NCBI RefSeq assembly: GCF_900101395.1
Contig: NZ_FMZO01000013.1
Coordinates: 1 to 64,000 of the forward strand
Direction of reading: 5' to 3'
Length of the DNA: 64,000 bases
Source of the DNA: Niabella drilacis
GTDB lineage: Bacteria; Bacteroidota; Bacteroidia; Chitinophagales; Chitinophagaceae
The notes under the pieces were generated by a model. That model did not search any database and was not told where the DNA came from. It was given only the letters and a program-made list of their open reading frames with translations. Below are positions 42,860 through 56,392 of this stretch, piece after piece (positions within the stretch are counted from its first letter, which is position 1; each line of letters opens with the position of its first letter). A program made the position numbers and the translations under genes.

Positions 42860-43042
42860 ACTGCATTTTTGTTATGTATTCAATAATCGTTATTAGACAT
42901 GAAAGTAAGAAAAGTGCCGGAGAAATCAAGATAGAAACAACCTTGGTTTGGTTTTGCAAAACCAGTAACAACCCCATTGATACAGCTATAGCAATTGAAG
43001 TGCGGCAAAATCGACGAAATAATTCGTATATGTTTTTTCTTT

Positions 43043-43792
43043 CTAATCTGCCACCGGCACATCTATGTGGTGGCCTTCGTCACTTTTCTTATTCAATAAA
43101 AAGTTTAGCGCCAGGTAAATAAAATGCAGGTTCCGGTTACCGCCAGGCGCCAGCTCCCGCTGCCACATATAGCCGGTAGAGACCCCTACTGTATTTGTAA
43201 ACTGGTAACCAAGGCCTGTAAAGAGGCGGTTTCGTTTCAACAGATCGGCCCTGGGTCCAAAAAACAGCTCCTCAAAACCATTGACGAAAAAGGTTTGCGC
43301 TTCAACTTTTTTCTTGTTAATAGGCAGGGTTGCGCTCAGGCGGTAGCGAAAACGCTGATCGGTTTTATTATCCGCTGTTTGCGGGTAATGAAAAAAGCGT
43401 TGTTCAGCACGGCCACGATGATCCAGTTTCAGTTTACCGATATTGTTGGTAAAGGTATATTGCAGCCACAACCGCAGCTCTCTTTGATAGAGGTCATGCT
43501 CCCTGAATGTAGTATACCTTCCAAAACCAATGAATGGCTGATTTCTGCTGTTAATACTATACCCGATCCCTCCTTTTGTTTCATAATAATCCAGGGGAGT
43601 AAATTTTTCTATGGATCGTGCCTGCAGCTCGGTATATGCCGTCCATTTGGGGTTAAACTTATAAGTAATTGACGTCATCAGGAAACCTGAAAGATGTTCT
43701 TTGTTTTCGGTTTGGGCAATTACTGTATAACTGGTCAGGAAAATAAATACAAGTACTATGGTGGTGCTGCGAAACATAATTTTATTGCTCAT
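43043..43792 (-). CDS. DUF2490 outer-membrane protein
   Basis: 249 residues with a signal peptide (MFRSTTIVLVFIFLTSYTVIAQ). A chain of amphipathic strands follows, typical of the DUF2490 barrel: FKPKW-like YKFNPKWTAYTELQAR, GIGYSINSRNQPFIGFGRYTTF, HRGRAEQRFFHY, RFRYRLSATLPIN and FTGLGYQFTNTVGVSTGYMWQRE. The function is unknown. It is 34 nt upstream of mnmG in the convergent-free minus-strand run, but read after mnmG. Confidence 0.85.
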   Translation of the reverse strand: MSNKIMFRSTTIVLVFIFLTSYTVIAQTENKEHLSGFLMTSITYKFNPKWTAYTELQARSIEKFTPLDYYETKGGIGYSINSRNQPFIGFGRYTTFREHDLYQRELRLWLQYTFTNNIGKLKLDHRGRAEQRFFHYPQTADNKTDQRFRYRLSATLPINKKKVEAQTFFVNGFEELFFGPRADLLKRNRLFTGLGYQFTNTVGVSTGYMWQRELAPGGNRNLHFIYLALNFLLNKKSDEGHHIDVPVAD

Positions 43793-43826
43793 TGATTGTT
43801 TTAATATACCATAGGGTCTTTTGGAA

Positions 43827-45695
43827 CTACCGGCCCATATATACCATAAGGATCTGGATATCGCTGGGTTTGATTCCTGAGATCCGGCTGGCCTGCCCCA
43901 GGGTCTGAGGACGGATCCTGTTTAATTTTTCCCGGGCCTCGTTTCCAAGGGAACTTAAACGGGAATAGTCGAACCCGGCGGGTATTGAAAGACTTTCCAT
44001 TTCAGACATCCGGTTTACGAGCTCCCGCTCTTTTTCAATATAGGTTTCATACTTTGTAAGAATAGAAGCCTGCTCCAGTTCTTCCTTTGTATAGTTCTTT
44101 ACCTGTTCTTTTAGAAAAGGAACAGCATTCACCAGGTTATCCAACTCAATATCCGGACGCAATAAGATCTTTTCTATCTTTTGTTTTTCCTGGATCGGCG
44201 ATGAGTCATGTTCAGAAAGAAACCCGTTGATATCTTCAGGACGCAGGGCCAGGCTTTTTAATATCTCCCGTATATTGGCAATATTTTCATTTTTTTGCCT
44301 TATTTTATTCATTCTATCTTCAGATGCGAGTCCCAGGTTATAGCTGATAGGTGTTAACCGCGCATCCGCATTGTCCTGGCGCAGCAGGGTACGATACTCT
44401 GCACGGGATGTAAACATGCGGTAAGGCTCCTCCGTTCCCTTATTGATAAGATCATCGATCAGTACACCAATGTAAGCATCGCTTCTCCCGAGTGTGAACG
44501 GATCTTTTTCCCGTACTTTGAGGTGGGCATTGATTCCAGCCATAATCCCCTGACAAGCGGCCTCCTCATAACCTGTAGTTCCATTGATCTGACCGGCAAA
44601 ATACAAATTATGTATTAATTTTGTTTCTAATGTGTTTTTAAGCTGAGTTGGAGGAAAGTAATCGTATTCGATAGCATAACCAGGTCGGAACAAACGGGCA
44701 TTCTCAAAGCCGGGAACCATTTGCAAAGCAGCATATTGTACTTCCTCCGGCAAGGAAGTAGAAAAGCCATTTACATAGATCTCAACGGTATTCCATCCCT
44801 CTGGTTCCACAAAAAGCTGATGCCGCTCCTTGTCTGCAAAGCGGTTAATCTTATCTTCAATACTGGGGCAATACCGTGGTCCTACCCCATCAATTCTTCC
44901 GGCATACATGGGGCTTCGGTCAAAACCGGTTCTCAGCATATCATGAACTTTCTGATCGGTATAAGTGATCCAGCAGCAACGCTGCTTTTTAGGGTCGATC
45001 TTTGGTGTATCAGAAAACGAGAATCCCACAATTTCCTCATCTCCATCCTGGATCTCCATTTTTGAATAATCAAGACTTCTTCCATCAACCCTTGGCGGGG
45101 TACCTGTCTTCAACCGGTCACTTTCAAAACCAAGGCTTACCAGTTGTTCCGTAATACCGCTGGCTGCTTTTTCTGCAACCCTTCCTCCTCCAAACTGCTT
45201 TTCGCCAATATGGATAATTCCATTTAAGAAAGTACCATTGGTTAATACAACTGCTTTGCTATGAATTTCATGGCCAAGACCTGTGACCACACCAGCTGCT
45301 CTTCCATTTTTAACGAGCAATCCCTTCACCATATCCTGGTAAAAATCAAGATTGGGAGTCTGCTCCAGCATCTCCCGCCATTTAGCTGCAAACAACATCC
45401 TGTCGCTCTGGGCTCTTGGACTCCACATAGCCGGTCCTTTTGACCGGTTAAGCATGCGAAACTGGATCATAGACAGATCTGTAACGATACCCGAATACCC
45501 ACCCAATGCATCGATTTCCCGCACAATCTGTCCTTTGGCAATCCCACCCATAGCAGGGTTACAGCTCATTTGTGCTATAGTCTGCATATTCATCGTCACC
45601 AACAGGGTTTTAGAGCCCATATTGGCAGCAGCGGCAGCAGCCTCACAGCCTGCATGTCCTGCACCCACTACAATTACATCATATTCTGGAAACAT
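43827..45695 (-). CDS. mnmG: tRNA uridine-5-carboxymethylaminomethyl modification enzyme MnmG
   Basis: A 622-residue FAD protein (GidA), normal length. The FAD motif is DVIVVGAGHAGCEAAAAAANMG. Conserved blocks include CNPAMGGIAKGQIVREIDALGG, LKTGTPPRVDGRSLDYSKME, and ICRM-like YCPSIEDKINRF. The C-terminal domain ends in GIKPSDIQILMVYMGR. With MnmE it modifies the wobble uridine of several tRNAs. mnmG is often close to the replication origin in bacteria; here four parS sites lie directly upstream. A TAATTTTG box ends 5 nt before the ATG. Confidence 0.97.
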   Translation of the reverse strand: MFPEYDVIVVGAGHAGCEAAAAAANMGSKTLLVTMNMQTIAQMSCNPAMGGIAKGQIVREIDALGGYSGIVTDLSMIQFRMLNRSKGPAMWSPRAQSDRMLFAAKWREMLEQTPNLDFYQDMVKGLLVKNGRAAGVVTGLGHEIHSKAVVLTNGTFLNGIIHIGEKQFGGGRVAEKAASGITEQLVSLGFESDRLKTGTPPRVDGRSLDYSKMEIQDGDEEIVGFSFSDTPKIDPKKQRCCWITYTDQKVHDMLRTGFDRSPMYAGRIDGVGPRYCPSIEDKINRFADKERHQLFVEPEGWNTVEIYVNGFSTSLPEEVQYAALQMVPGFENARLFRPGYAIEYDYFPPTQLKNTLETKLIHNLYFAGQINGTTGYEEAACQGIMAGINAHLKVREKDPFTLGRSDAYIGVLIDDLINKGTEEPYRMFTSRAEYRTLLRQDNADARLTPISYNLGLASEDRMNKIRQKNENIANIREILKSLALRPEDINGFLSEHDSSPIQEKQKIEKILLRPDIELDNLVNAVPFLKEQVKNYTKEELEQASILTKYETYIEKERELVNRMSEMESLSIPAGFDYSRLSSLGNEAREKLNRIRPQTLGQASRISGIKPSDIQILMVYMGR

Positions 45696-45700
45696 GGGTG

Positions 45701-45708
45701 CAAAATTA
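45701..45708 (-). promoter_or_regulatory. -7 box of mnmG
   Basis: TAATTTTG on the minus strand, 5 nt before the ATG. No TTTG is seen at the expected distance. If used, the mRNA would be leaderless. Confidence 0.4.
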
Positions 45709-45804
45709 CACCATTCCCTTGTTTTACTCTACTTCCCCGAATGATTCTGTAAAGAAACGCCTTACTAAATAAGCCCTATTCATTTTATTGTCCTTACTAT
45801 CTGT

Positions 45805-45820
45805 TGTTCCACGTGAAACA
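45805..45820. other. parS site 1
   Basis: TGTTCCACGTGAAACA, a one-base variant of the ParB-binding consensus TGTTTCACGTGAAACA. Confidence 0.88.
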
Positions 45821-46165
45821 ACAGCCCTCTAAAAGCGCAAAATATTATCCCTTCATCTTTCCGCACCAGGGGATCCAAATCAGTTCATCCCAACCGAAAG
45901 CCAGGACTCCTATCAAATTGAGATCCGTTATATTCCGGATTTACAAGGAATGACGCCTATTTCTATCTGTAAAAAGATCCGAATCAGGGTCCGTTGTCTA
46001 AGCAATAATGAAACCAGCCGCCGCAAAAGAAACAGTCAGCAGGAATCCCCATATCCGGTTCTCCGGGAGATGCTAAAAAACAATGAGAAAAAAGCAGCGA
46101 CTCCGGGGAAGTCCGCTCTCAGATTCGCCCGGAAATAAAACTAATAGCAATTAAATCAACCTCAA

Positions 46166-46181
46166 TGTTCCACGTGGAACA
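46166..46181. other. parS site 2
   Basis: TGTTCCACGTGGAACA, a perfect 16-bp palindrome and a known parS form. Confidence 0.9.
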
Positions 46182-46433
46182 GGCTAAAATTGCTTAGGCT
46201 CCCGGTTAAAAACCAGGCACCGGCCATGGTTGAAGGAAATTTTAGAACCAATTAAACGATAGTTATAGCTTCCGTAGATAAATTTTAATAACTGGCTTTC
46301 TAAATTATAAGATCTCTGATTGAAACAACACTGTATAAATACCAAATATCCCTTTACACAAGGTGTAGTCAGCAACTCAACATAAATGAAACAAAGTCAT
46401 TCCCAAAGAAATCATCCTGTCGGAACCCGTCTA

Positions 46434-46449
46434 TGTTCCACGTGGAACA
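46434..46449. other. parS site 3
   Basis: TGTTCCACGTGGAACA, identical to site 2. Confidence 0.9.
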
Positions 46450-46741
46450 AACATCCAGCAATCCGAATCACCCCCGGAGCACCCCTTTATGCAAAAGTTC
46501 AAAATAAATAATGCCAGGGCTATTTAAAAAAGTCTATTAACACCATACTAAGAGCAATTAAATGCCCGCTACTTCTAACAGAGAAATACTTTCAAGTCAT
46601 AAGCGGAAATTTGGTCCTACATAAGTTTCCAGCATTCCTGAACAACCGATCAGACTTTCCCAACCCCATCATCCATACCCCGATCATCTATAAAACACCG
46701 GTAGTTGTCCCAAAAATAGCTCCCATTATAGGTACTTCGCC

Positions 46742-46757
46742 TGTTCCACGTGAAACA
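46742..46757. other. parS site 4
   Basis: TGTTCCACGTGAAACA, identical to site 1. It lies 4 nt past the 3' end of ybeY. Confidence 0.88.
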
Positions 46758-46760
46758 ATA

Positions 46761-47201
46761 TCACAATCCATACCTCAAAAGACACTGATCCTCCATATTC
46801 CGCATAACCGCTTGTTCCCGGGGTGTTTTATCATTATACCCACACAAATGAAGAGCTCCATGGAAAATAACTCTATGTAATTCCCGGTTAAAAGGCTCCT
46901 TTTGAACCAGGGCATTCGAACGCACAGTATCAACACTGATAAAAATATCAGCTACCATTGGCTCCGATGGTTTTTCGCGCACATCAAAGGTTATAATATC
47001 TGTATAATAGTCATGCTTCAGGTACTGCCGGTTGATTCCCAGTATTTTCTCGTCATCACAAAATATATAGTGCAACCTATCCAGCTCCTGTTTGTTTTCT
47101 TTAAACAGGATCGCCAGAAAATGTTTCAGCCTTTTCCGCTCTCTGAGTGTAACTTTTTTATGAAAAGAAAAAATAACCGGGGGTAGATGAATGGATGTCA
47201 T
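46761..47201 (-). CDS. ybeY: rRNA maturation RNase YbeY
   Basis: I take the ATG at 47201 (MTSIHLPPVIFSFHKK). The longer frame from 47264 adds residues not typical of the family and overlaps the feoA start. The 146-residue protein has the YbeY blocks LHYIFCDDEKILGINRQYLKHDYYTDIITFD and the metal motif HGALHLCGYNDKTPREQAVMR. The third zinc His of the E. coli motif (HGxLHLxGYDH) is replaced here (YNDK). It trims 16S rRNA and helps ribosome quality control. It is divergent from feoA, and its 3' end abuts parS site 4. Confidence 0.92.
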   Translation of the reverse strand: MTSIHLPPVIFSFHKKVTLRERKRLKHFLAILFKENKQELDRLHYIFCDDEKILGINRQYLKHDYYTDIITFDVREKPSEPMVADIFISVDTVRSNALVQKEPFNRELHRVIFHGALHLCGYNDKTPREQAVMRNMEDQCLLRYGL

Positions 47202-47240
47202 ATTTTCAAAATTCGTAAATAAAACACAACCTACAATAGT

Positions 47241-47248
47241 TAGATTTG
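47241..47248 (+). promoter_or_regulatory. -7 box of feoA
   Basis: TAGATTTG, 4 nt before the feoA ATG. No clear TTTG at the normal distance. It predicts a leaderless transcript. Confidence 0.4.
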
Positions 47249-47252
47249 CAAC

Positions 47253-47495
47253 ATGGAACAACAAAAAGAACTCTTATTGTCCGACCTAAAGCCCGGGCAA
47301 CGTGCGCGCATTCAAAAGTTTACAACGGAAGAGATCTTTCTGAAACTGATGGAAATGGGTTGCCTGCCCGGTGAAGAGATAGAGATCATAAAAGTAGCAC
47401 CTCTTAATGATCCCATTTCCATATCTGTTGCAGGTTATACCCTCAGTCTCCGGCTTGATGAAGCCCGGTTTATCGTTGTTGATACTATAATCTAA
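47253..47495 (+). CDS. feoA: FeoA-family ferrous iron transport protein
   Basis: 80 residues, an SH3-like small protein: LLSDLKPGQRARIQKFTTEEIFLKLMEMGCLPGEEIEIIKVAPLNDPISISVAGYTLSLRLDEARFIVVD. FeoA normally assists the FeoB iron permease, but no feoB is adjacent. It is followed after 6 nt by nadD, so the two probably share a transcript. Confidence 0.88.
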   Translation: MEQQKELLLSDLKPGQRARIQKFTTEEIFLKLMEMGCLPGEEIEIIKVAPLNDPISISVAGYTLSLRLDEARFIVVDTII

Positions 47496-47501
47496 CCCTA
47501 T

Positions 47502-48074
47502 ATGAAAATCGGACTTTTCTTTGGCTCCTTCAATCCCATTCATCATGCACATCTTATCATAGCCAATCATATCCTCAACCAGGAGCTGGTTAATAAAGTA
47601 TGGCTTGTAGTATCCCCCCATAATCCGCTAAAGGAAACAGCATCTCTTCTTAACGAGAACCAGCGCCTGCATCTGACAAGACTCGCCATCGATAATGATA
47701 CCCGTATGCAGGCCACAGATATAGAGTTCACCCTACCCCGCCCTTCATACACCGCCGTAACCCTGGCCCATCTAAGCGAAAAATATCCCCAGCATGACTT
47801 TTCATTGATCATGGGAGGCGACAGTTTTCAAAATATTGAGAAGTGGAAGAACTATAAATATATATTAGAAAATTTTAATATATTAATTTATAACAGACCC
47901 GGCTTTGAAACAGACACCCGTTTAAGTAATAGAATTACACTACTGGACGCTCCCCTGCTGGAACTATCAGCCACGCATATACGTCAGCTGATCAAAGCAA
48001 AAAAATCGATCCGGTATTTACTTCCGGAAGCTGTTATTGAAGAAATAGAAAAAGCCGGCTATTTTAGAAAATAA
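47502..48074 (+). CDS. nadD: nicotinate-nucleotide adenylyltransferase
   Basis: A 190-residue nucleotidyltransferase: [22 protein letters not shown] with the H-x-x-H signature, [17 protein letters not shown], and [24 protein letters not shown] (the ISSTxIR-type motif). It adenylates nicotinate mononucleotide in NAD synthesis. nadA lies about 3.4 kb away. Its last 16 bases overlap the 3' end of the convergent chrA gene. Confidence 0.94.
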
Positions 48075-49294
48075 CCCAGCAATAAACAAAAGCCAACCAA
48101 TACCGGTGCCGGTATTTTTGTAAAGATCAATACAGCAGAAGTACCCAGCAAAACCCCCAGGTTTGCCAGGGCTATAGACTGAAAATTAAATATGGAAAGA
48201 TCTTTCATAATATACACCGTAGACCCCATCATAATCCCCATTACCGCAGCATTGATACCCTCCAGCGACCGGTAGATCACTGAATATTTTTTTAGCATAT
48301 TCCATATTGGAAAGAAGAATAACACCAGTAAAGCACTGGGCAAAAAGATACCTACCATGCCTATAATGGCACCCAGCACCTGTATAGAAGGACCCATATC
48401 CTTTAATGCCAGCCCACCCGTATAAGATGCAATCGAGAAAACCGGCCCCGGCATCGCCCGAACCATACCTATACCGGTAAGCATTTCCCCCTTATCAATC
48501 TTGATAGCGTTCGGATTCTTCTCCTTTACTTCATCCGGACGAACACTATACTGCTCATACATAATAGGCATCAGTACATTTCCGCCACCAAAAACCAGGC
48601 TACCCATCCGGTAGGTATTTTCAAAAAGGTTAACAGGCTTCCGGTATTGCCACTCATTCTTCCGCGCCAGCTCACTAAAAATACCGGCGAAAATAAAAAT
48701 GATCGCAAAAAGCCAGATATTCCACCACTGGATCTTACCCGGTCTTACCGCAACCTGCGGTATCCGTTTCCTACTAAGATTCGTAACGACCCCCCCGGCA
48801 ACGATCAATGCAGGAACAATAAAGGGTCTGCCAAAGAAGAAAAAAGTAACCAGGCCCGCTATAAAAGCGATAACCAAAGTAATCGTATTATTCACCGAAT
48901 ACGGAAAAGCCGAAACACAGGCATAAATTAAAAACCCGGCCGCCATAGGAACAATAAAGCGAAAAATATTCAGGCTCTCACCATTCAGATAATTCACCAA
49001 AAAAGAAAGTCCGCCCATAATGGCGCAGGCCGGCAGGATCCATACCAGCAAGGTCAGTATCGCCAACGGCACCCCACCTCTTTTAAACCCGATCAGCGTT
49101 AGCGTTTGTGTAGAGGAAGCACCCGGAAGCAACTGGCAAAATGCATTGTACTCCATCAACTCCTTCTCCGTTATATAAGGCGTTTGCTTCACAAAGGTCT
49201 TCATCATCATGGCCAGATGCGCCTGCGGACCGCCAAAAGCCGTTAAGCCATGCAGCAAAACTAATCTCAAAAAATGCAAATGCCTTAGCAACAT
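48059..49294 (-). CDS. chrA: chromate transporter, two-domain
   Basis: A 411-residue inner-membrane protein with two CHR domains. The N-terminal half has [21 protein letters not shown] and [26 protein letters not shown]. The C-terminal half has [20 protein letters not shown] and [23 protein letters not shown]. The family expels chromate, but many members have unknown ions. It overlaps nadD tail to tail by 16 bp. It is probably monocistronic. Confidence 0.92.
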
Positions 49295-49463
49295 CTCTAA
49301 TGATTCAAAATATCCAGTCCTTTAATTTTCCTTATAAAACAGAAAAACCGGAACTACAACAAAATTTCCTCAAAAGTTACTACTTTCAACCACATACGCC
49401 ATAAACCAAAAACCCCGCCCCATCTTTATCTTAAAAGATGCGTAGGACCTAAGCTTGCTGTTA

Positions 49464-50219
49464 TCAAATATTCAATCCACCACAAACGCTGATCGTTTGC
49501 CCGGTTATATAAGATCCCATATCAGAAGCAAGAAATAAAGCGGTATTCGCGATATCTGCGGCACTTGCAAATTTGCCCAGGGGAATATCTGCAAGATATT
49601 TGGAAGACGCATCACCATCGTGCAGATAACTGGTCATGTCTGTTTCCACAAATCCCGGTGCAATAGCATTACAACGTATGTTACGGCTTCCCAGTTCCTT
49701 TGCCACGCTTTTTGTAAAACCAATAATACCTGCCTTGCTGGCTGCATAGCTTGCCTGTCCTGCATTTCCCATTACACCAATCACTGAACTCATATTAATG
49801 ATGCTGCCGCTCTTTGCCTTCATCATGGGTCTGATCACCTGCTTTGTCATATAAAAAACACTATTCAGGTTTATCTGCAAAACAGACTCCCATTGTTCAG
49901 GAGTCATTCTCAGCAACAAATTATCTTTCGAAATTCCGGCGTTATTCACACAGATATCAATCGCTCCAAACTCTTTCAGTACTTCACCTACAAATGTTTC
50001 ACAGGCTGCAAAATCACCGGCATTACTTTGCCAGGCTTTAATATGTACGCCCTTACTGGTCCATTTATTTACCAATGCATTTGCTTTTTCCGCACTACTA
50101 TCACTTACATAAGAAAAAGCGATAGCAGCACCCTGCGCTGCAAAAGTTTCGACAATTGCTTCCCCTATCCCGCGCGCCGCACCGGTAACAATGGCAATTT
50201 TATTCTCCAGTAATTTCAT
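49464..50219 (-). CDS. fabG: 3-oxoacyl-ACP reductase
   Basis: A 251-residue short-chain dehydrogenase. The NADPH motif is TGAARGIGEAIVETF. CVNNAG, NMSSVIGVMGNAGQASYAASKAGIIGFTKSVAKELG (catalytic Ser-Tyr-Lys) and the C-terminal YITGQTISVCGGLNI follow. The C-terminal form and VIGVMGNAGQ are typical of FabG, which reduces 3-oxoacyl-ACP in fatty-acid synthesis. No other fab gene is adjacent. Confidence 0.92.
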   Translation of the reverse strand: MKLLENKIAIVTGAARGIGEAIVETFAAQGAAIAFSYVSDSSAEKANALVNKWTSKGVHIKAWQSNAGDFAACETFVGEVLKEFGAIDICVNNAGISKDNLLLRMTPEQWESVLQINLNSVFYMTKQVIRPMMKAKSGSIINMSSVIGVMGNAGQASYAASKAGIIGFTKSVAKELGSRNIRCNAIAPGFVETDMTSYLHDGDASSKYLADIPLGKFASAADIANTALFLASDMGSYITGQTISVCGGLNI

Positions 50220-50301
50220 AAAACAAATGGTTTATTAACAGCTTGCAAATAAAGTTAATTATTTTGTTACAATAAAGTTTAATAAAGAATCAGGCACAGC
50301 A

Positions 50302-51489
50302 TTAACCCTTCGTAAAAAAGTAGATCACTCCTCTCTTATCATCACTGATAAAAAAAGAGTTCGTATCCCATTGAATAATATCACATGGGCGTCCATATCT
50401 TTTGTCTTCCGTTTTACCCTGAAGAAATCCTTTGATGATTTCCCTGTATCCGCCACCCGGAAGCAGCTGCACCACTGCATTTCCACGCTGCCGCCATACA
50501 CTGGTACTTCCATGTAATGCCACCAGGAAAGACCTGTTCAGAAGCGGATCTTCAAAGTCACTTACATATTCAAAACCCAAAGGCGCTGCATGTGCCTTAA
50601 AGCTGTAGGGCGCCACCACAGGTTTTCTCACAAAACCCGGACGGCTGCTTTTTACAAACTGTGTATCGGCAACAATCGTCTTCCTATATTGATAATAATA
50701 AGGCCATCCGTAAAATCCATTTTCCACCACCGGGTGAAATAATTCCTCCGGTTTATCAGGTCCCCTGTTATCCCTCCCCATATGCGTTACCCAAAGCACG
50801 TCCTTTACCCACTTTATACCTACTGCATTCCGGATGCCTCTTGCAAAGATCCTTTTATTACCGCCATCAGGATCCATTTCCATCACCGTAGCCCGAACAT
50901 CCTCCTTCTCGATGCAGGCATCGCAGCTGCTTCCCACACTCACATAAATCTTTCCTTTATTAAAAGCAATGCTCCGGGTAAGATGCCACCCCCCATATTT
51001 ATAGCTCAAACCATAGTCCGGAAAAGTGCCAATCACCACAGGTGCTCCCGCGGCAATTGAATCGCCCGGGGTGTACCTGTAGTAACTCAGTTTACCCGTT
51101 TCTGCAATATAGAGATATACCTGACCGCCTGCCGTATAAAACGCTACCTGGTTAGGGTTATGCAGGTTCTCCAAAAAAGTAGTTACTTTTCCAAATGTTT
51201 TTCTCTGATGGTCCCAGTTTTCAAGGATCAGCACCCTTCCCTTATGATTGTCGCCCCTGTTATGCATATCCGTAACAAACAACCGTCCATCCGGGCTCTT
51301 ACAAAAAAAGCGCGGGCGCTCCAGGCCCTGCGCAGCAACATTAATACGATACCCCCGAGGAACATTTAACTGAAACGGGGATCCCTTTTTTAATGTGATG
51401 GTTTGCTGATCCCATTGAAATTTCTCCTGTGAAAGGGAAACTAACGGTAAAATAAAAATACTACTGATTATCGCAAAACATTTCCACAT
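50302..51489 (-). CDS. sorbosone/glucose dehydrogenase-like beta-propeller, exported
   Basis: 395 residues with a signal peptide (MWKCFAIISSIFILPLVSLSQ). The propeller repeats of the soluble quinoprotein dehydrogenase group are visible: GYRINVAAQGLERPRFFCKSPDGRLFVTDMHNRG, NPNQVAFYTAGGQVYLYIAETGKL, KIYVSVGSSCDACIEKEDVRATVMEMDPDGGNKRIFARGIRNAVGIKW, and GRPCDIIQWDTNSFFISDDKRGVIYFF. Cofactor (PQQ) and substrate are not certain. It starts 9 nt after nadA, so it is probably in the same transcript. Confidence 0.85.
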   Translation of the reverse strand: MWKCFAIISSIFILPLVSLSQEKFQWDQQTITLKKGSPFQLNVPRGYRINVAAQGLERPRFFCKSPDGRLFVTDMHNRGDNHKGRVLILENWDHQRKTFGKVTTFLENLHNPNQVAFYTAGGQVYLYIAETGKLSYYRYTPGDSIAAGAPVVIGTFPDYGLSYKYGGWHLTRSIAFNKGKIYVSVGSSCDACIEKEDVRATVMEMDPDGGNKRIFARGIRNAVGIKWVKDVLWVTHMGRDNRGPDKPEELFHPVVENGFYGWPYYYQYRKTIVADTQFVKSSRPGFVRKPVVAPYSFKAHAAPLGFEYVSDFEDPLLNRSFLVALHGSTSVWRQRGNAVVQLLPGGGYREIIKGFLQGKTEDKRYGRPCDIIQWDTNSFFISDDKRGVIYFFTKG

Positions 51490-51498
51490 GTTACAAAC

Positions 51499-52509
51499 TT
51501 ACAAGCCTGCAGCAGCACTGATCTCAAGCATCCTGTCTATCGGCTTCCTGGCAGCCAGCCTTAATGACTCATCCATAATAATATCCGGCAATCCATACTT
51601 CATACATAGATACAGCTTCTCCAGGGTGTTTCGTTTCATATGCGGACAATCATTGCAGGCACAGCTATTATCCGGCGGTGCCGGAATGAACAGCTTATCG
51701 GGGCTTGCCTTTTCCATCTGATGCAGGATACCTGTTTCTGTTGCTACAATATATTCCTTTGCATCATCCTGTTTGGTGTATTTCAATAAACCTGTGGTTG
51801 AACCAATATAATCAGCCAGTCTTAACAAGGGCTCCTCGCATTCCGGATGCGCAATCAGTTTGGCATTTGGATGCTGATGTTTCAGCCGGGTAATTTTCTC
51901 AAGACTGAATATTTCATGTACCATACAGGCACCATTCCACAACAACATATTCCTTCCCGTAACCTTGTTGATATAGGCGCCCAGGTTCTTATCGGGCGCA
52001 AAAATAATTTTCTGATCTTTCGGAAAGCTTTCCACAATGATCCGGGCATTACTGCTCGTAACGATCACATCACTCAGTGCCTTGATCCCCGCACTGCAGT
52101 TGATATAGCTCACCACCACATGATCCGGGTGCTGCTCTTTAAACTTTTGGAACAAGGGAGGAGGACAACTGTCACTTAACGAACAGCCCGCCTTAAAATC
52201 GGGGATCACTACTTTTTTTGTCGGATTCAGGATCTTGGCAGTTTCAGCCATAAAATGCACCCCTGCAAAAACGATCATATCGGCATCGGTTTTCTGCGCC
52301 TCCTGTGCCAGTCCCAGACTATCGCCGATGTAATCGGCAATGTCCTGGATGTCCGGTTCCTGGTAGTAATGTGCCAGGACAACAGCATTCTTCTCCCGCT
52401 TCAATTTTTCAATCTCAACAAACAGATCCAATTTCGGATCAACGGTCACATCCAGAAAACCGTTTTCTTCCAAGCCACTCTTTGCTGCTTCCAAAATACC
52501 TGAATTCAT
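51499..52509 (-). CDS. nadA: quinolinate synthase
   Basis: 336 residues. NadA condenses iminoaspartate with dihydroxyacetone phosphate to quinolinate and carries one 4Fe-4S cluster. Typical blocks are [39 protein letters not shown] (Cys ligand), [24 protein letters not shown] (Cys ligand) and the C-terminal [18 protein letters not shown]. It reads away from the candidate origin. No nadB or nadC is in the window, but nadD is. Confidence 0.95.
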
Positions 52510-52539
52510 ACTTGAAAAATTTTATCCCTGCAATGATAC

Positions 52540-52960
52540 GACCAAGCTAAACAAAAAATCAAACTTTTTTCAAATCCTGTTTTTTCCTTTTAATAATATT
52601 TATATTAATTATTTATTTAAAATAAGCTATTATTATTACGGCTGTGGATTAGTGGATAACTCTGTTTTTCCCAATTTCCGTTTTTTCCCGCTTTTCGTTT
52701 ACCCACATTAAATGTACAGATATCCACATAATGAAGGTACGGATCTTATGGCTTATGCGTGGTTATTAACAAAAATGTGAATTGATAGATGTTTACAAAA
52801 AACTAAAGACATATTAAATTTACACTATGTTAATATTGTTGGTATAAAATGACGGCTGTTAACCGAAAATAAAAAATGAGGACATCCTGTCCAATCTTTC
52901 AGCCAGTAATACATTTCACATACACGTTTCACGCAGGGTTATACACATTATCTTATGGTA
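52540..52960. other. candidate chromosomal origin (oriC)
   Basis: Part of a 573-bp gene-free gap. 52540-52640 is extremely AT-rich, like an unwinding element. Five DnaA-box-like sites follow: TGTGGATTA (52643-52651) and AGTGGATAA (52651-52659) on the minus sense, TTACCCACA (52699-52707), ATATCCACA (52720-52728) and TTATACACA (52939-52947) on the plus sense. The last fits TTATNCACA exactly; the others differ by one base. The gap separates minus-strand nadA from the plus-strand S46 peptidase. The parS cluster lies about 6 kb away. Confidence 0.65.
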
Positions 52961-53082
52961 ATTAACAGGGTGTTGGGGACAAAAAGACGCTGTAAAAGAA
53001 AAAAAGCACGAGGTATTTTTTAAAAACGAATGTAAGTAAGTAATAAAATTTACTTTATCTTGCCCCATCTATAATTCTTAAA
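52961..53082. other. rest of the nadA-S46 gap
   Basis: AT-rich sequence leading into the S46 peptidase gene. A TATCTTG near 53056 may be the -7 element of that gene. Nothing else is recognised. Confidence 0.4.
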
Positions 53083-55254
53083 ATGATGAATTTTTTTAAA
53101 AAATTTTTCGGCCTGACGGCCGGATTACTGTGCATGGGCCTGGCAAAAGCCGATGAAGGAATGTGGTTGCCCCAGCTGCTGGAAAACCTGAATGAGAAGC
53201 GGATGCAACAACTGGGTATGAAGATCAATGCAAAAGATATTTATGATATTAATAAAGGAAGTTTAAAGGATGCAATTGTAAGCTTTGGGGGCTTTTGCAC
53301 GGGTGAGGTCGTTTCTGAAAAAGGGCTGGTACTTACGAACCATCATTGTGGGTTTGAGGCTGTTCAAAAACATTCCACACTTGACCGGAATTATATCCGG
53401 GATGGTTTTTGGGCGCGCAACCAGGCGGAGGAATTACCTAATGAAGGTCTTTTTGTGACTTTTATTGTACGGATCGATGATGTATCGGACCAGGTATTAA
53501 AAGGTGTACGCAGTGATATGAAGGAAAACGAGCGCCAGAGCATGGTTGACCGGAATACCAATATGCTTAAGAAAGCAACAAAGCTCAGCAAATTTGAAAA
53601 TGCTTTTGTAAGTCCTTTTTTTGAGGGTAATAAATATTATCTTTTTATAACAGAGACATTTAAGGATGTACGTTTAGTAGGTGCTCCTCCTTCCAGTATC
53701 GGCAATTTCGGGCAGGACTCAGATAACTGGATGTGGCCCCGGCATACCGGCGATTTCAGTGTTTTCAGGATCTATGCGGGAAGGGATAATAGCCCGGCTG
53801 AATACGCACCGGATAATATTCCTTATGTGCCTAAGAAAGCCCTGTCAATTTCTCTCAGGGGAATGAAACAGGACGATTTTACCATGATCTTCGGTTTTCC
53901 CGGCCGTACATCTGAGTACCTTCCCAGTGAAGCAGTACGCCAGATCGTAGAAGTGAATGATCCGGCAAAAATTATGATCAGGGATAAGACCCTTGGCATT
54001 ATGAAAAAATATATGCAGGCAGATGAGGAATTGAAAATAAAGTATGCTTCCAAATATGCCGGTATCGCCAACGCATGGAAGAAATGGCAGGGAGAAATAC
54101 TGGGGCTCACCCGTACAAACGGAGTACAAAAGAAGCTGAACTATGAAGCTGATTTTCAAAAGCGGGTGGAATCCGGTAACCTGGAAAAGTACCGTACAGT
54201 TTTAGGAGAACTGAACAGGGTATATAAGGCAATAGAACCGTATGCGCTTACCCGTGATTATTATCTTGAAATTACCGGGAAAATTGAATTATTTGGTATC
54301 ATCAACCGCCTGAGAGCTTTGAAGGATGCTACAAATAAGCCCGATTATGCCAAAGAGCGTGCTGCACAATTGGAAAAGCTGACGGCTCTGTATAAGAACC
54401 TGAGTATTGATGTGGATAAAGACATTTTTGCAGCATTACTGCCGGTTTATATGGAAAAACAGCAGGCGCAATATATAGCACCGGTTGCAAAACAGCAATT
54501 TGAACAGTATGGGAGGAACTATCAGCAATGGGCAGCGGCATTGTATGCAAACAGTATTTTTCTGGATCCTTCAAAGGTGCTGGAGGGGGTAAGATCTGAT
54601 CCTTCGGTGCTTTATGAGTCATTTGAAAAAGACGCCGCGGCAAAATTGATCCTTGGAATGGCGGATCTGTATAATAATACAGTAACTCCGAAATTAAATG
54701 AGCTGCAGGCGGGGATCAACCGTTTGCAACGAAGATATATGCAGGCACAAACAGAGGTGTTTGCCGATAAAACTTTTTACCCCGATGCCAATAGCACACT
54801 CCGTGTGGGATTTGGCAAGGTTGATGGATATAACCCGGCAGATGGTGTCACATACAGCTATTATACCTATCTCGATGGAGTAATAGAAAAATACATTCCG
54901 GGAGATTATGAATTTGATGTTCCGGAAAGACTGCGCCGGCTGTACCGGGAAAAAGATTATGGGCGTTATGGTGTAAGGGACAGCCTGGGAAGCTACAGGA
55001 TGCCTGTATGTTTCATTGCCTCGAATCATACTACGGGAGGCAATAGCGGCAGCCCCGCCCTGGATGCAAATGGTAACCTGACTGGCATCAATTTTGACCG
55101 GGTATGGGAAGGAACAATGAGCGACATCAGTTACGATGCCTCTATTTGCCGTAACATCATGGTAGATATCCGGTATGTGTTGTTCATAATAGAAAAGTAT
55201 GCCGGAGCCGGTCACCTGATCCGGGAAATGAAGCTTGTGGATGCCGGAAAGTAA
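53083..55254 (+). CDS. S46 family dipeptidyl-peptidase (DPP7/DPP11 type)
   Basis: 723 residues with a signal peptide (MMNFFKKFFGLTAGLLCMGLAKA); periplasmic. The serine-protease residues are visible: His in VLTNHHCGFEAVQ and Ser in TTGGNSGSPALDANGNLTGINFD. The next residues, DRVWEGTMSD, place Arg where DPP11 has its acidic-P1 determinant and DPP7 has Gly, which suggests cleavage after Asp/Glu. The family releases dipeptides from extracellular proteins for nutrition. It is probably followed in one transcript by the YtxH-like gene (56 nt). Confidence 0.93.
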   Translation: MMNFFKKFFGLTAGLLCMGLAKADEGMWLPQLLENLNEKRMQQLGMKINAKDIYDINKGSLKDAIVSFGGFCTGEVVSEKGLVLTNHHCGFEAVQKHSTLDRNYIRDGFWARNQAEELPNEGLFVTFIVRIDDVSDQVLKGVRSDMKENERQSMVDRNTNMLKKATKLSKFENAFVSPFFEGNKYYLFITETFKDVRLVGAPPSSIGNFGQDSDNWMWPRHTGDFSVFRIYAGRDNSPAEYAPDNIPYVPKKALSISLRGMKQDDFTMIFGFPGRTSEYLPSEAVRQIVEVNDPAKIMIRDKTLGIMKKYMQADEELKIKYASKYAGIANAWKKWQGEILGLTRTNGVQKKLNYEADFQKRVESGNLEKYRTVLGELNRVYKAIEPYALTRDYYLEITGKIELFGIINRLRALKDATNKPDYAKERAAQLEKLTALYKNLSIDVDKDIFAALLPVYMEKQQAQYIAPVAKQQFEQYGRNYQQWAAALYANSIFLDPSKVLEGVRSDPSVLYESFEKDAAAKLILGMADLYNNTVTPKLNELQAGINRLQRRYMQAQTEVFADKTFYPDANSTLRVGFGKVDGYNPADGVTYSYYTYLDGVIEKYIPGDYEFDVPERLRRLYREKDYGRYGVRDSLGSYRMPVCFIASNHTTGGNSGSPALDANGNLTGINFDRVWEGTMSDISYDASICRNIMVDIRYVLFIIEKYAGAGHLIREMKLVDAGK

Positions 55255-55310
55255 ACCGGCATTATTTTGTATATTTAAGTATCTATTGATTCACTTAAAA
55301 TTGATTCTTC

Positions 55311-55637
55311 ATGGTAAATAACAAACACATTGCCACCTTTATATTGGGGGCGCTGGCTGGGCTGGCCGCCGGAAAATATACCAGTATGAGCGAAGAGGAA
55401 AAGGAGCAGATGATGAATAACCTGAAAGAGAAAGCGAATAAATTAAAAGAAGACGCTTCAAAATCTGCGGAACAGGCAAAGGACTATTTTTCGGAGCTGG
55501 CAACAAAAGGAATGGATTCATTAAAAGAACATTTTCCCGGTGCTGAAAAATGGATGAGCGATCTCTTTGGAAATAAGAGTGCCGATAGTCATACAGCGGC
55601 TTCAGATACCGGGAGCACAGAGGCATCCCCTTCTTAA
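55311..55637 (+). CDS. YtxH-like membrane-anchored helical protein
   Basis: 108 residues. A short hydrophobic segment near the N-terminus (IATFILGALAGLAAGKY) is followed by a highly charged amphipathic helix region (EEEKEQMMNNLKEKANKLKEDASKSAEQAKDYF). The C-terminal tail is disordered and Ser/Thr-rich. This is the layout of YtxH-domain and similar stress-associated small proteins. The function is unknown. Confidence 0.7.
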   Translation: MVNNKHIATFILGALAGLAAGKYTSMSEEEKEQMMNNLKEKANKLKEDASKSAEQAKDYFSELATKGMDSLKEHFPGAEKWMSDLFGNKSADSHTAASDTGSTEASPS

Positions 55638-55684
55638 TTTATACAAAGAACATCCTCCCGTTAAAAGTGAGGGACAAAAGCGGG

Positions 55685-56392
55685 CTATAAAATACTATTA
55701 GGATTAGGCACCAGCTTCAGGATCTTATGCAGGTTCTGCTGGTAATTTTTGCGGTCCAGCTTGTAGAAATAGGCACCCTTCTTTGATCCGGTTTTGTCTT
55801 TGTCGCGTTGTTTCAGCAATAGTCCTGTGGAAAGCATTTTCCTGCTGAAGTTACCTTTATCAAAACTGGATTCGTACACATCTTCAAAAAGGCTTTGCAG
55901 GAGAGGAAGGGTAAACTTATCCGGAAGCAATTCAAAAAGGATGGCATGTGATGTTGCTTTATACTGCAGCCGTTTCTTTGCTGTTTTTACCATCTCTTCG
56001 TGATCAAATATCAGGTTTGGAAAGTCTTTTATAGAGAACCATTCGGCATGGTAGGCATCACTTATAAATTCTTTATATTTTTTAATATCGATCAGCGAAA
56101 AATATGCAATGGAAATGGTCCGCTCCTGGGAGTCTCTTCCCGGATCAGTAAAGGTATAAAACTGCTCCTGGTATACGTCTTTTAAACCGGTTAAGGAAGC
56201 AAGGATACGGCTGGCTGCCTGGTCGGCACTCTCGTTCTTTGCAACAAATCCTCCCATCAGGCTCCACCTTCCTTTTAGTGGAGTAAGCGCGCGCTTTACG
56301 AGCAGGATCTTTAGGTTTTGCCCATCGTAGCCAAAAACGATACAATCCACCGCAACAGTATAACGCGATTGATTACTATATTTTGCCGCCAT
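55685..56392 (-). CDS. NrtR-like Nudix-type transcriptional regulator
   Basis: 235 residues. The N-terminal Nudix fold (RYTVAVDCIVFGYDGQNLKILLVKRALTPLKGRWSLMGGFV) has a degenerate Nudix box: the catalytic RExxEE positions read RILASL, so hydrolysis is unlikely. The C-terminal ~80 residues form a winged helix (LPDKFTLPLLQSLFEDVYESSFDKGNFSRKMLSTGLL) typical of NrtR. NrtR-type proteins bind ADP-ribose or related metabolites and control NAD or sugar genes. The target here is unknown; nadA and nadD are in the same region. It is probably monocistronic. Confidence 0.85.
   Translation of the reverse strand: MAAKYSNQSRYTVAVDCIVFGYDGQNLKILLVKRALTPLKGRWSLMGGFVAKNESADQAASRILASLTGLKDVYQEQFYTFTDPGRDSQERTISIAYFSLIDIKKYKEFISDAYHAEWFSIKDFPNLIFDHEEMVKTAKKRLQYKATSHAILFELLPDKFTLPLLQSLFEDVYESSFDKGNFSRKMLSTGLLLKQRDKDKTGSKKGAYFYKLDRKNYQQNLHKILKLVPNPNSIL

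Follow-up and report, generated by a model that had tools for sequence, protein, structure and literature searches.

The 64,000-nucleotide stretch of DNA analysed here (the window) carries four 16-bp palindromes between mnmG and ybeY, and these very probably constitute a chromosomal parS centromere served by ParB from a parA-parB pair located elsewhere on the chromosome. The sites themselves, their uniqueness, their place and the partner genes, taken together with the established biology of ParABS systems, led us to identify the cluster as the centromere of this chromosome.

The parS sites and the mnmG-ybeY gap

A re-scan of the window recovered all four palindromes exactly, with the coordinates and letters that had been given in an earlier sequence-only reading, and all within 953 bp. 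The palindromes have no strand of their own. Sites 1 (45805-45820) and 4 (46742-46757) have the sequence TGTTCCACGTGAAACA and sites 2 (46166-46181) and 3 (46434-46449) have the sequence TGTTCCACGTGGAACA, a perfect palindrome, and the start-to-start spacings are 361, 268 and 308 bp. The mnmG start and site 1 are separated by about 110 bp, with site 1 on the upstream side, and site 4 follows the ybeY stop codon after only a few bases, such that the four sites occupy the gap from one end to the other. All four are centred on CACGTG and match the 16-bp palindrome of the published parS consensus (TGTTTCAC-GTGAAACA, as given in the available part of PMC7383237), each half having either C or T at one of its positions, which agrees with their earlier assignment to known parS forms. 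The earlier view that four such sites by chance would not be credible also held: at up to three mismatches the window has six matches to the 16-mer, against a shuffle mean of 0.70, none of 100 shuffles reached six, and the two matches beyond the four sites carry three mismatches each.

The genome searched is a draft of 6,099,002 bases in 45 contigs, and the reversed pattern served as the control for motif counts in this genome and in the family genomes and named loci described below. Scattering of the 16-mer over the genome had been named as a finding that would count against a centromere. It was not scattered, as the 6.1-Mb draft contains four exact copies and all four are within 953 bp, in the mnmG-ybeY gap. 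At up to two mismatches the 16-mer had six sites and the reversed pattern seven, indicating that the inexact matches are at noise level. The 14-bp core of the motif, GTTYCACGTGRAAC, identified the same four exact sites and a single one-mismatch site on another contig (C21), and at up to two mismatches it gave 39 matches versus 48 for the reversed pattern. We therefore rejected inexact parS sites elsewhere in the genome, the counts for both the 16-mer and the core being below those of the reversed pattern.

The gap that holds the four sites is 1,065 bp long (45696-46760). It is flanked by mnmG (gidA; 43827-45695, minus strand; Pfam GIDA, 543.6 bits), the gene beside which parS lies in the relatives, and by ybeY (46761-47201 from its ATG, minus strand; Pfam YbeY, 95.1 bits). 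Three ORFs of 62, 63 and 89 residues overlap the gap, which had earlier been described as otherwise gene-free, and no Pfam family matched any of them. No Rfam family reached its gathering score in the region 43000-56000, the promoter-like and terminator-like patterns in the gap were not above shuffles, and its repeats were the parS copies and short two-copy matches. Comparison of such gaps in related Chitinophagaceae had been proposed as a check, and alignment of the window's gap with the same gap in three relatives (G119, G022 and G114) gave matches at E ≤0.004 that were confined to the palindromes and a few bases next to them. These data indicated that the sites persist and that the DNA between them has changed.

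The probable origin and the distant partner genes

The sequence-only reading had placed the cluster near the replication origin, and our analyses of base composition and DnaA boxes supported this. A 573-bp AT-rich gap at 52510-53082 (30% G+C, no strand assigned) separates nadA (51499-52509, minus strand) from a peptidase S46 gene (53083-55254, plus strand), both identified by Pfam family matches, and coincides with a GC-skew minimum. Near the sites skew stays negative until about 52.5 kb, is positive immediately beyond that point and falls slightly below zero again at 56-58 kb. When the window was extended by the following 20 kb of its contig, the cumulative minimum over 40-84 kb fell in the 1-kb bin that ends at 53 kb. 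The AT-richest 60 bp of the gap (52578-52637) are a candidate DNA unwinding element. Four DnaA-box-like 9-mers follow at 52643-52728 (starts 52643, 52651, 52699 and 52720), each one mismatch from TTATCCACA, and a fifth, TTATACACA, is at 52939-52947 on the plus strand. Five boxes at up to one mismatch from TTATCCACA compare with a shuffle mean of 0.29, none of 200 shuffles reached five, and the cluster is the densest among the 22 such boxes of the window. A second pattern, TTWTNCACA, had 11 matches in the whole window versus a mean of 6.75, a count reached by 6 of 100 shuffles, and with one match in the nadA-S46 gap it was not clearly enriched. The DnaA evidence is thus a matter of the clustering of near-consensus boxes and not of the TTWTNCACA count. 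The nadA-side stretch also had DnaA boxes in five relatives (5 in G119, 6 in G022, 12 in G018, 5 in G106 and 6 in G114, the stretch being a fixed 900 bp in the last three), numbers that were not reached by 200 shuffles in any of them. Based on the skew minimum, the box cluster, the AT-rich 60-mer and the boxes of the relatives, we took 52510-53082 to be the probable oriC, predicted to lie about 6 kb from the nearest parS site.

These five relatives are each assembled as a single contig, and their skew was sampled, with 16 to 20 segments of 20 kb for each genome, rather than computed along the whole chromosome. The distance from their sites to the skew minimum or the nadA-side origin is about 3-17 kb, and that to parB 0.7-1.8 Mb. 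In G022, which belongs to the same genus, skew was negative in the sample at 620 kb and had become positive in that at 640 kb, a single later sample (1.65 Mb) going against the trend. Its parS is at 631,393, its nadA-S46 gap at approximately 640.0-640.7 kb, and its parB at 3.24 Mb on a contig of 3.34 Mb, which puts parB about 0.74 Mb from parS round the circle. In G119, of the same genus and without an exact 16-mer, variant sites at 3,230,968 and 3,231,039 are about 8 kb from a local minimum at 3,223 kb and about 1.06 Mb from parB. In G018 parS (2,371,715) is separated from the nadA start by about 4 kb, from the local minimum (2,385 kb) by 13 kb and from parB by 1.84 Mb. In G114 parS (7,065,138) is about 10 kb from a local minimum that falls immediately upstream of nadA, at 7,075 kb, and 1.81 Mb from parB. 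Skew in G106 was weak and noisy, with a change between 5.45 and 5.70 Mb and one sample (4.4 Mb) against the trend. Its parS is at 5.562-5.564 Mb, with the nadA start 3-5 kb away, the lowest skew point of the 40 kb analysed 15-17 kb away and parB 1.72 Mb away.

In many model species parAB is next to parS, which is a common feature of such centromeres rather than a defining one. In the genome studied here the sites are on contig C23, parB is on C28 and dnaA is on a third contig. The earlier statements that parB is absent from the window and that the centromere stands alone were right in that parAB lies on another contig. Absence of any ParB homologue had been named as another finding that would count against the centromere, and one ParB was identified in the genome, as a match to TIGR00180 of 167.9 bits (cut-off 58.45). 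Its ORF is 307 residues long, contains the stretches GERRLRAS and ENLQRED and the Pfam domains ParB_N, HTH_ParB and ParB_C, and aligned with solved ParB and Spo0J structures at E values down to 4.3e-56. Directly upstream on C28 is an ORF of 266 residues with a KGGVGKTT motif, a ParA-type ATPase by Pfam (AAA_31, 230.5 bits; CbiA).

The work of Jalal et al. (2020), so far as covered by the available part of PMC7383237, distinguished ParB from the related protein Noc by R173 and G201 in the former and Q173 and R201 in the latter, and listed Q162, G170, K171, S172, N178 and R204 as contacts common to both. We anchored the residue numbering on the Caulobacter row of our alignment. The ParB of this genome has the CTP motif and keeps the parS-type DNA-binding residues R173, G201, Q162, G170, K171, N178 and R204, but it has an Asp at position 172, which counts against the centromere reading. 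This position, a Ser that contacts parS in Caulobacter, is Asp or Glu in all 34 ParB entries from family loci (two of which are the same protein of this genome), and the solved ParB 7bnk_A also has a Glu there. Across the same 34 entries R173, G201, Q162, K171, N178 and R204 were invariant and G170 was found in 19. Smc (1002.6 bits) and ScpA (107.3 bits) were both identified in the genome.

Expected mechanism and known ParABS systems

In ParABS systems, ParB loads at parS as a CTP clamp, ParA drives movement, and Smc-ScpAB is loaded. The cluster in the window is a normal chromosomal ParABS centromere with ordinary machinery, and by analogy we infer ParB binding, spreading, segregation and Smc loading at it. 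ParB produced from the distant parA-parB pair would load as a CTP-dependent clamp at the four sites and spread over the DNA flanking parS, ParA would move the ParB-coated region, and ParB would very probably help to load Smc-ScpAB at the sites. Since the sites are about 6 kb from the probable oriC, parS would be one of the earliest loci on the chromosome to be replicated and segregated. The general ParABS mechanism is described also in the available part of PMC10197239.

The system resembles the chromosomal ParABS systems of Bacillus subtilis, Caulobacter crescentus and Pseudomonas aeruginosa, as these are generally known and as described in parts of PMC7383237 and PMC10419367, in its 16-bp palindrome, its clustered origin-near copies, its one ParA-ParB pair, its parS-type ParB residues and its Smc and ScpA. 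It differs from them in that parA-parB is on another contig (at the megabase-scale distances given above in the five relatives) and dnaA on a third, and in that the sites are between mnmG and ybeY. The Noc-binding sites (NBS) of Firmicutes involve a related palindrome and protein family. However, the NBS centre is CCCGGG (PMC7383237, in part) and the sites here are centred on CACGTG, with a ParB that has R173 and G201 rather than Q173 and R201, and a Noc/NBS nucleoid occlusion system was rejected on these grounds.

A study of twelve mouse-gut bacteria, two of them Bacteroidetes, found parS to be mostly clustered and at the origin, and warned that the origin does not always accompany dnaA (PMC10197239, in the sections available). 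The closeness of parS and origin in that study was partly built in, as the skew shift nearer the parS cluster was picked as ori. In the same sections, no condensin homologue was reported for its two Bacteroidetes, whereas the genome studied here has Smc and ScpA. Origin-clustered parS in these bacteria and the warning on dnaA are already in print.

Linkage of parS to mnmG across Bacteroidota

Exact 16-mers were found in 72 of 147 family genomes (reversed pattern, 1 of 147) and the 14-bp core in 103 of 147 (reversed pattern, 2 of 147), and ParB was identified in 143 of 147. The reading that a genome without an exact 16-mer has no parS was thus partly rejected, since the 16-mer varies in its outermost T and A and the core raised the count from 72 to 103. 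In 29 of 30 site-bearing loci, one per genome, mnmG was within the 1.9- to 3-kb stretch, and in the thirtieth (L017, from G006) the mnmG start was 1.7 kb from the site. Among the matches listed, none of the 75 core sites in 28 family genomes was further than 2,258 bp from the mnmG start, and 68 of them were upstream of the gene and 7 inside it.

This linkage was also seen outside the family. A search with mnmG provided 80 named loci, the best 80 among at least 588 relatives, and their titles name, among others, Chitinophagaceae along with Cytophagales-type genera (Algoriphagus, Roseivirga), Flavobacteriales-type genera and Pedobacter. Of these best 80, 50 had an exact core no more than 2.5 kb from the mnmG start, and 64 had a core at up to one mismatch in the same range. 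The same loci had 117 exact cores in the 392 kb around mnmG versus 3 in the 1,181 kb further out, and no reversed cores. Where ybeY was found, it was directly upstream of mnmG in 52 of 53 named loci, with a gap of about 30 bp to about 1 kb.

The position of the sites raises the question of whether they are operator sites for a transcription regulator of mnmG or ybeY and not a centromere. Among the matches listed, 26 of the 28 genomes have a core site at most 200 bp upstream of mnmG, as site 1 is in the window, and a promoter-like hexamer pair overlaps site 4. We consider this reading very improbable. The motif is the published parS consensus, no exact copy is present at any other promoter in the genome, and the promoter-like matches in the gap numbered 2 versus a shuffle mean of 2.8. 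Sites inside the mnmG coding sequence (6 of the 28 genomes among the matches listed) and runs of nine sites over 1.4-1.8 kb, as in G015 and G114, are also unlike an operator. Even less credible is that the sites are relics of an ancestral gidA, gidB, parA and parB origin cluster, these genes being listed in the available part of PMC2099444 as possibly forming one, and that the present ParB works elsewhere, as its remoteness from the sites in the five relatives might suggest; four exact copies would be expected to erode in neutral intergenic DNA, palindromes were kept among same-genus gaps in which the intervening DNA changed, and the genome has no other exact parS for a ParB that retains R173 and G201.

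We favor, with some reservation, the view that across much of Bacteroidota the centromere is fixed to mnmG, whether in the upstream gap, just downstream or within the gene at one recurring codon, as part of an ancestral gidA-gidB-parA-parB origin cluster, and that it kept its place by the origin as parAB relocated to distances of up to megabases. If so, selection would hold the position of the centromere and not that of parAB. Wide linkage of parS to mnmG with a distant parAB might be the part of these findings that specialists do not know. No paper title on a parS-mnmG linkage was found among the literature matches listed, the main survey (Livny et al. 2007) being outside their scope, and neither gidA nor mnmG occurs in the main text of PMC10197239.

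Sequence analysis alone placed a centromere and a probable origin at most 8 kb apart, with dnaA and parAB both elsewhere. Should the linkage be as wide as the 80 named loci suggest, it would provide a practical origin marker for Bacteroidota draft genomes and metagenome bins, and a natural case of ParB acting on a centromere far from its own gene.

Some observations run against the centromere reading. Exact cores were absent from 44 of the 147 family genomes, although nearly all of the 147 have a ParB, as given above. We examined 20 of these, with positions approximate to some tens of bases, and 13 carried a one-mismatch core variant no more than about 800 bp upstream of mnmG. No such variant was found there in the other seven (G034, G040, G044, G057, G066, G086 and G091). 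Likewise, 2 of 17 named loci examined (L094 and L101) had a one-mismatch variant. For the 16-mer at up to two mismatches, 18 of the best 80 named loci of at least 588 had no match. Ten of these are all of the loci labelled Saprospiraceae, Saprospirales, Lewinellaceae, Lewinella or Neolewinella (L104, L106, L108, L110, L112, L118, L121, L124, L138 and L158), none of which had a site at this threshold. Four others are Chitinophagaceae or Bacteroidetes loci high in the match list (L091, L093, L094 and L101) and the remaining four are L105, L107, L119 and L127. In G086, G091, L091 and L093 a pair of inverted sequences such as GTTCCACGGGACAC and GTGTCCCGTGGAAC, separated by about 31 bp, was observed some 680-730 bp upstream of mnmG in place of a core parS, and is perhaps a diverged parS pair, or perhaps a hairpin.

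Within mnmG itself, a core parS at about base 381 was observed in L097, L098, L102, L111, L113, G017, G115, G005, G031, G125 and G032. The in-gene site occupies the same codons, reading V-S-R-G/E-T in the first five of these loci, and L113 and G032 have a second in-gene core site at about base 1596. The mnmG of the window has no in-gene core site. At the other extreme, nine core sites are upstream of mnmG in G114 (contig C1, 7063446-7065245) and in G015 (contig C5, 355311-356749), both of one genus. The mnmG-ybeY gap of G114 has grown to about 4.1 kb, and the nine sites together with this gap suggest that the centromere block expands.
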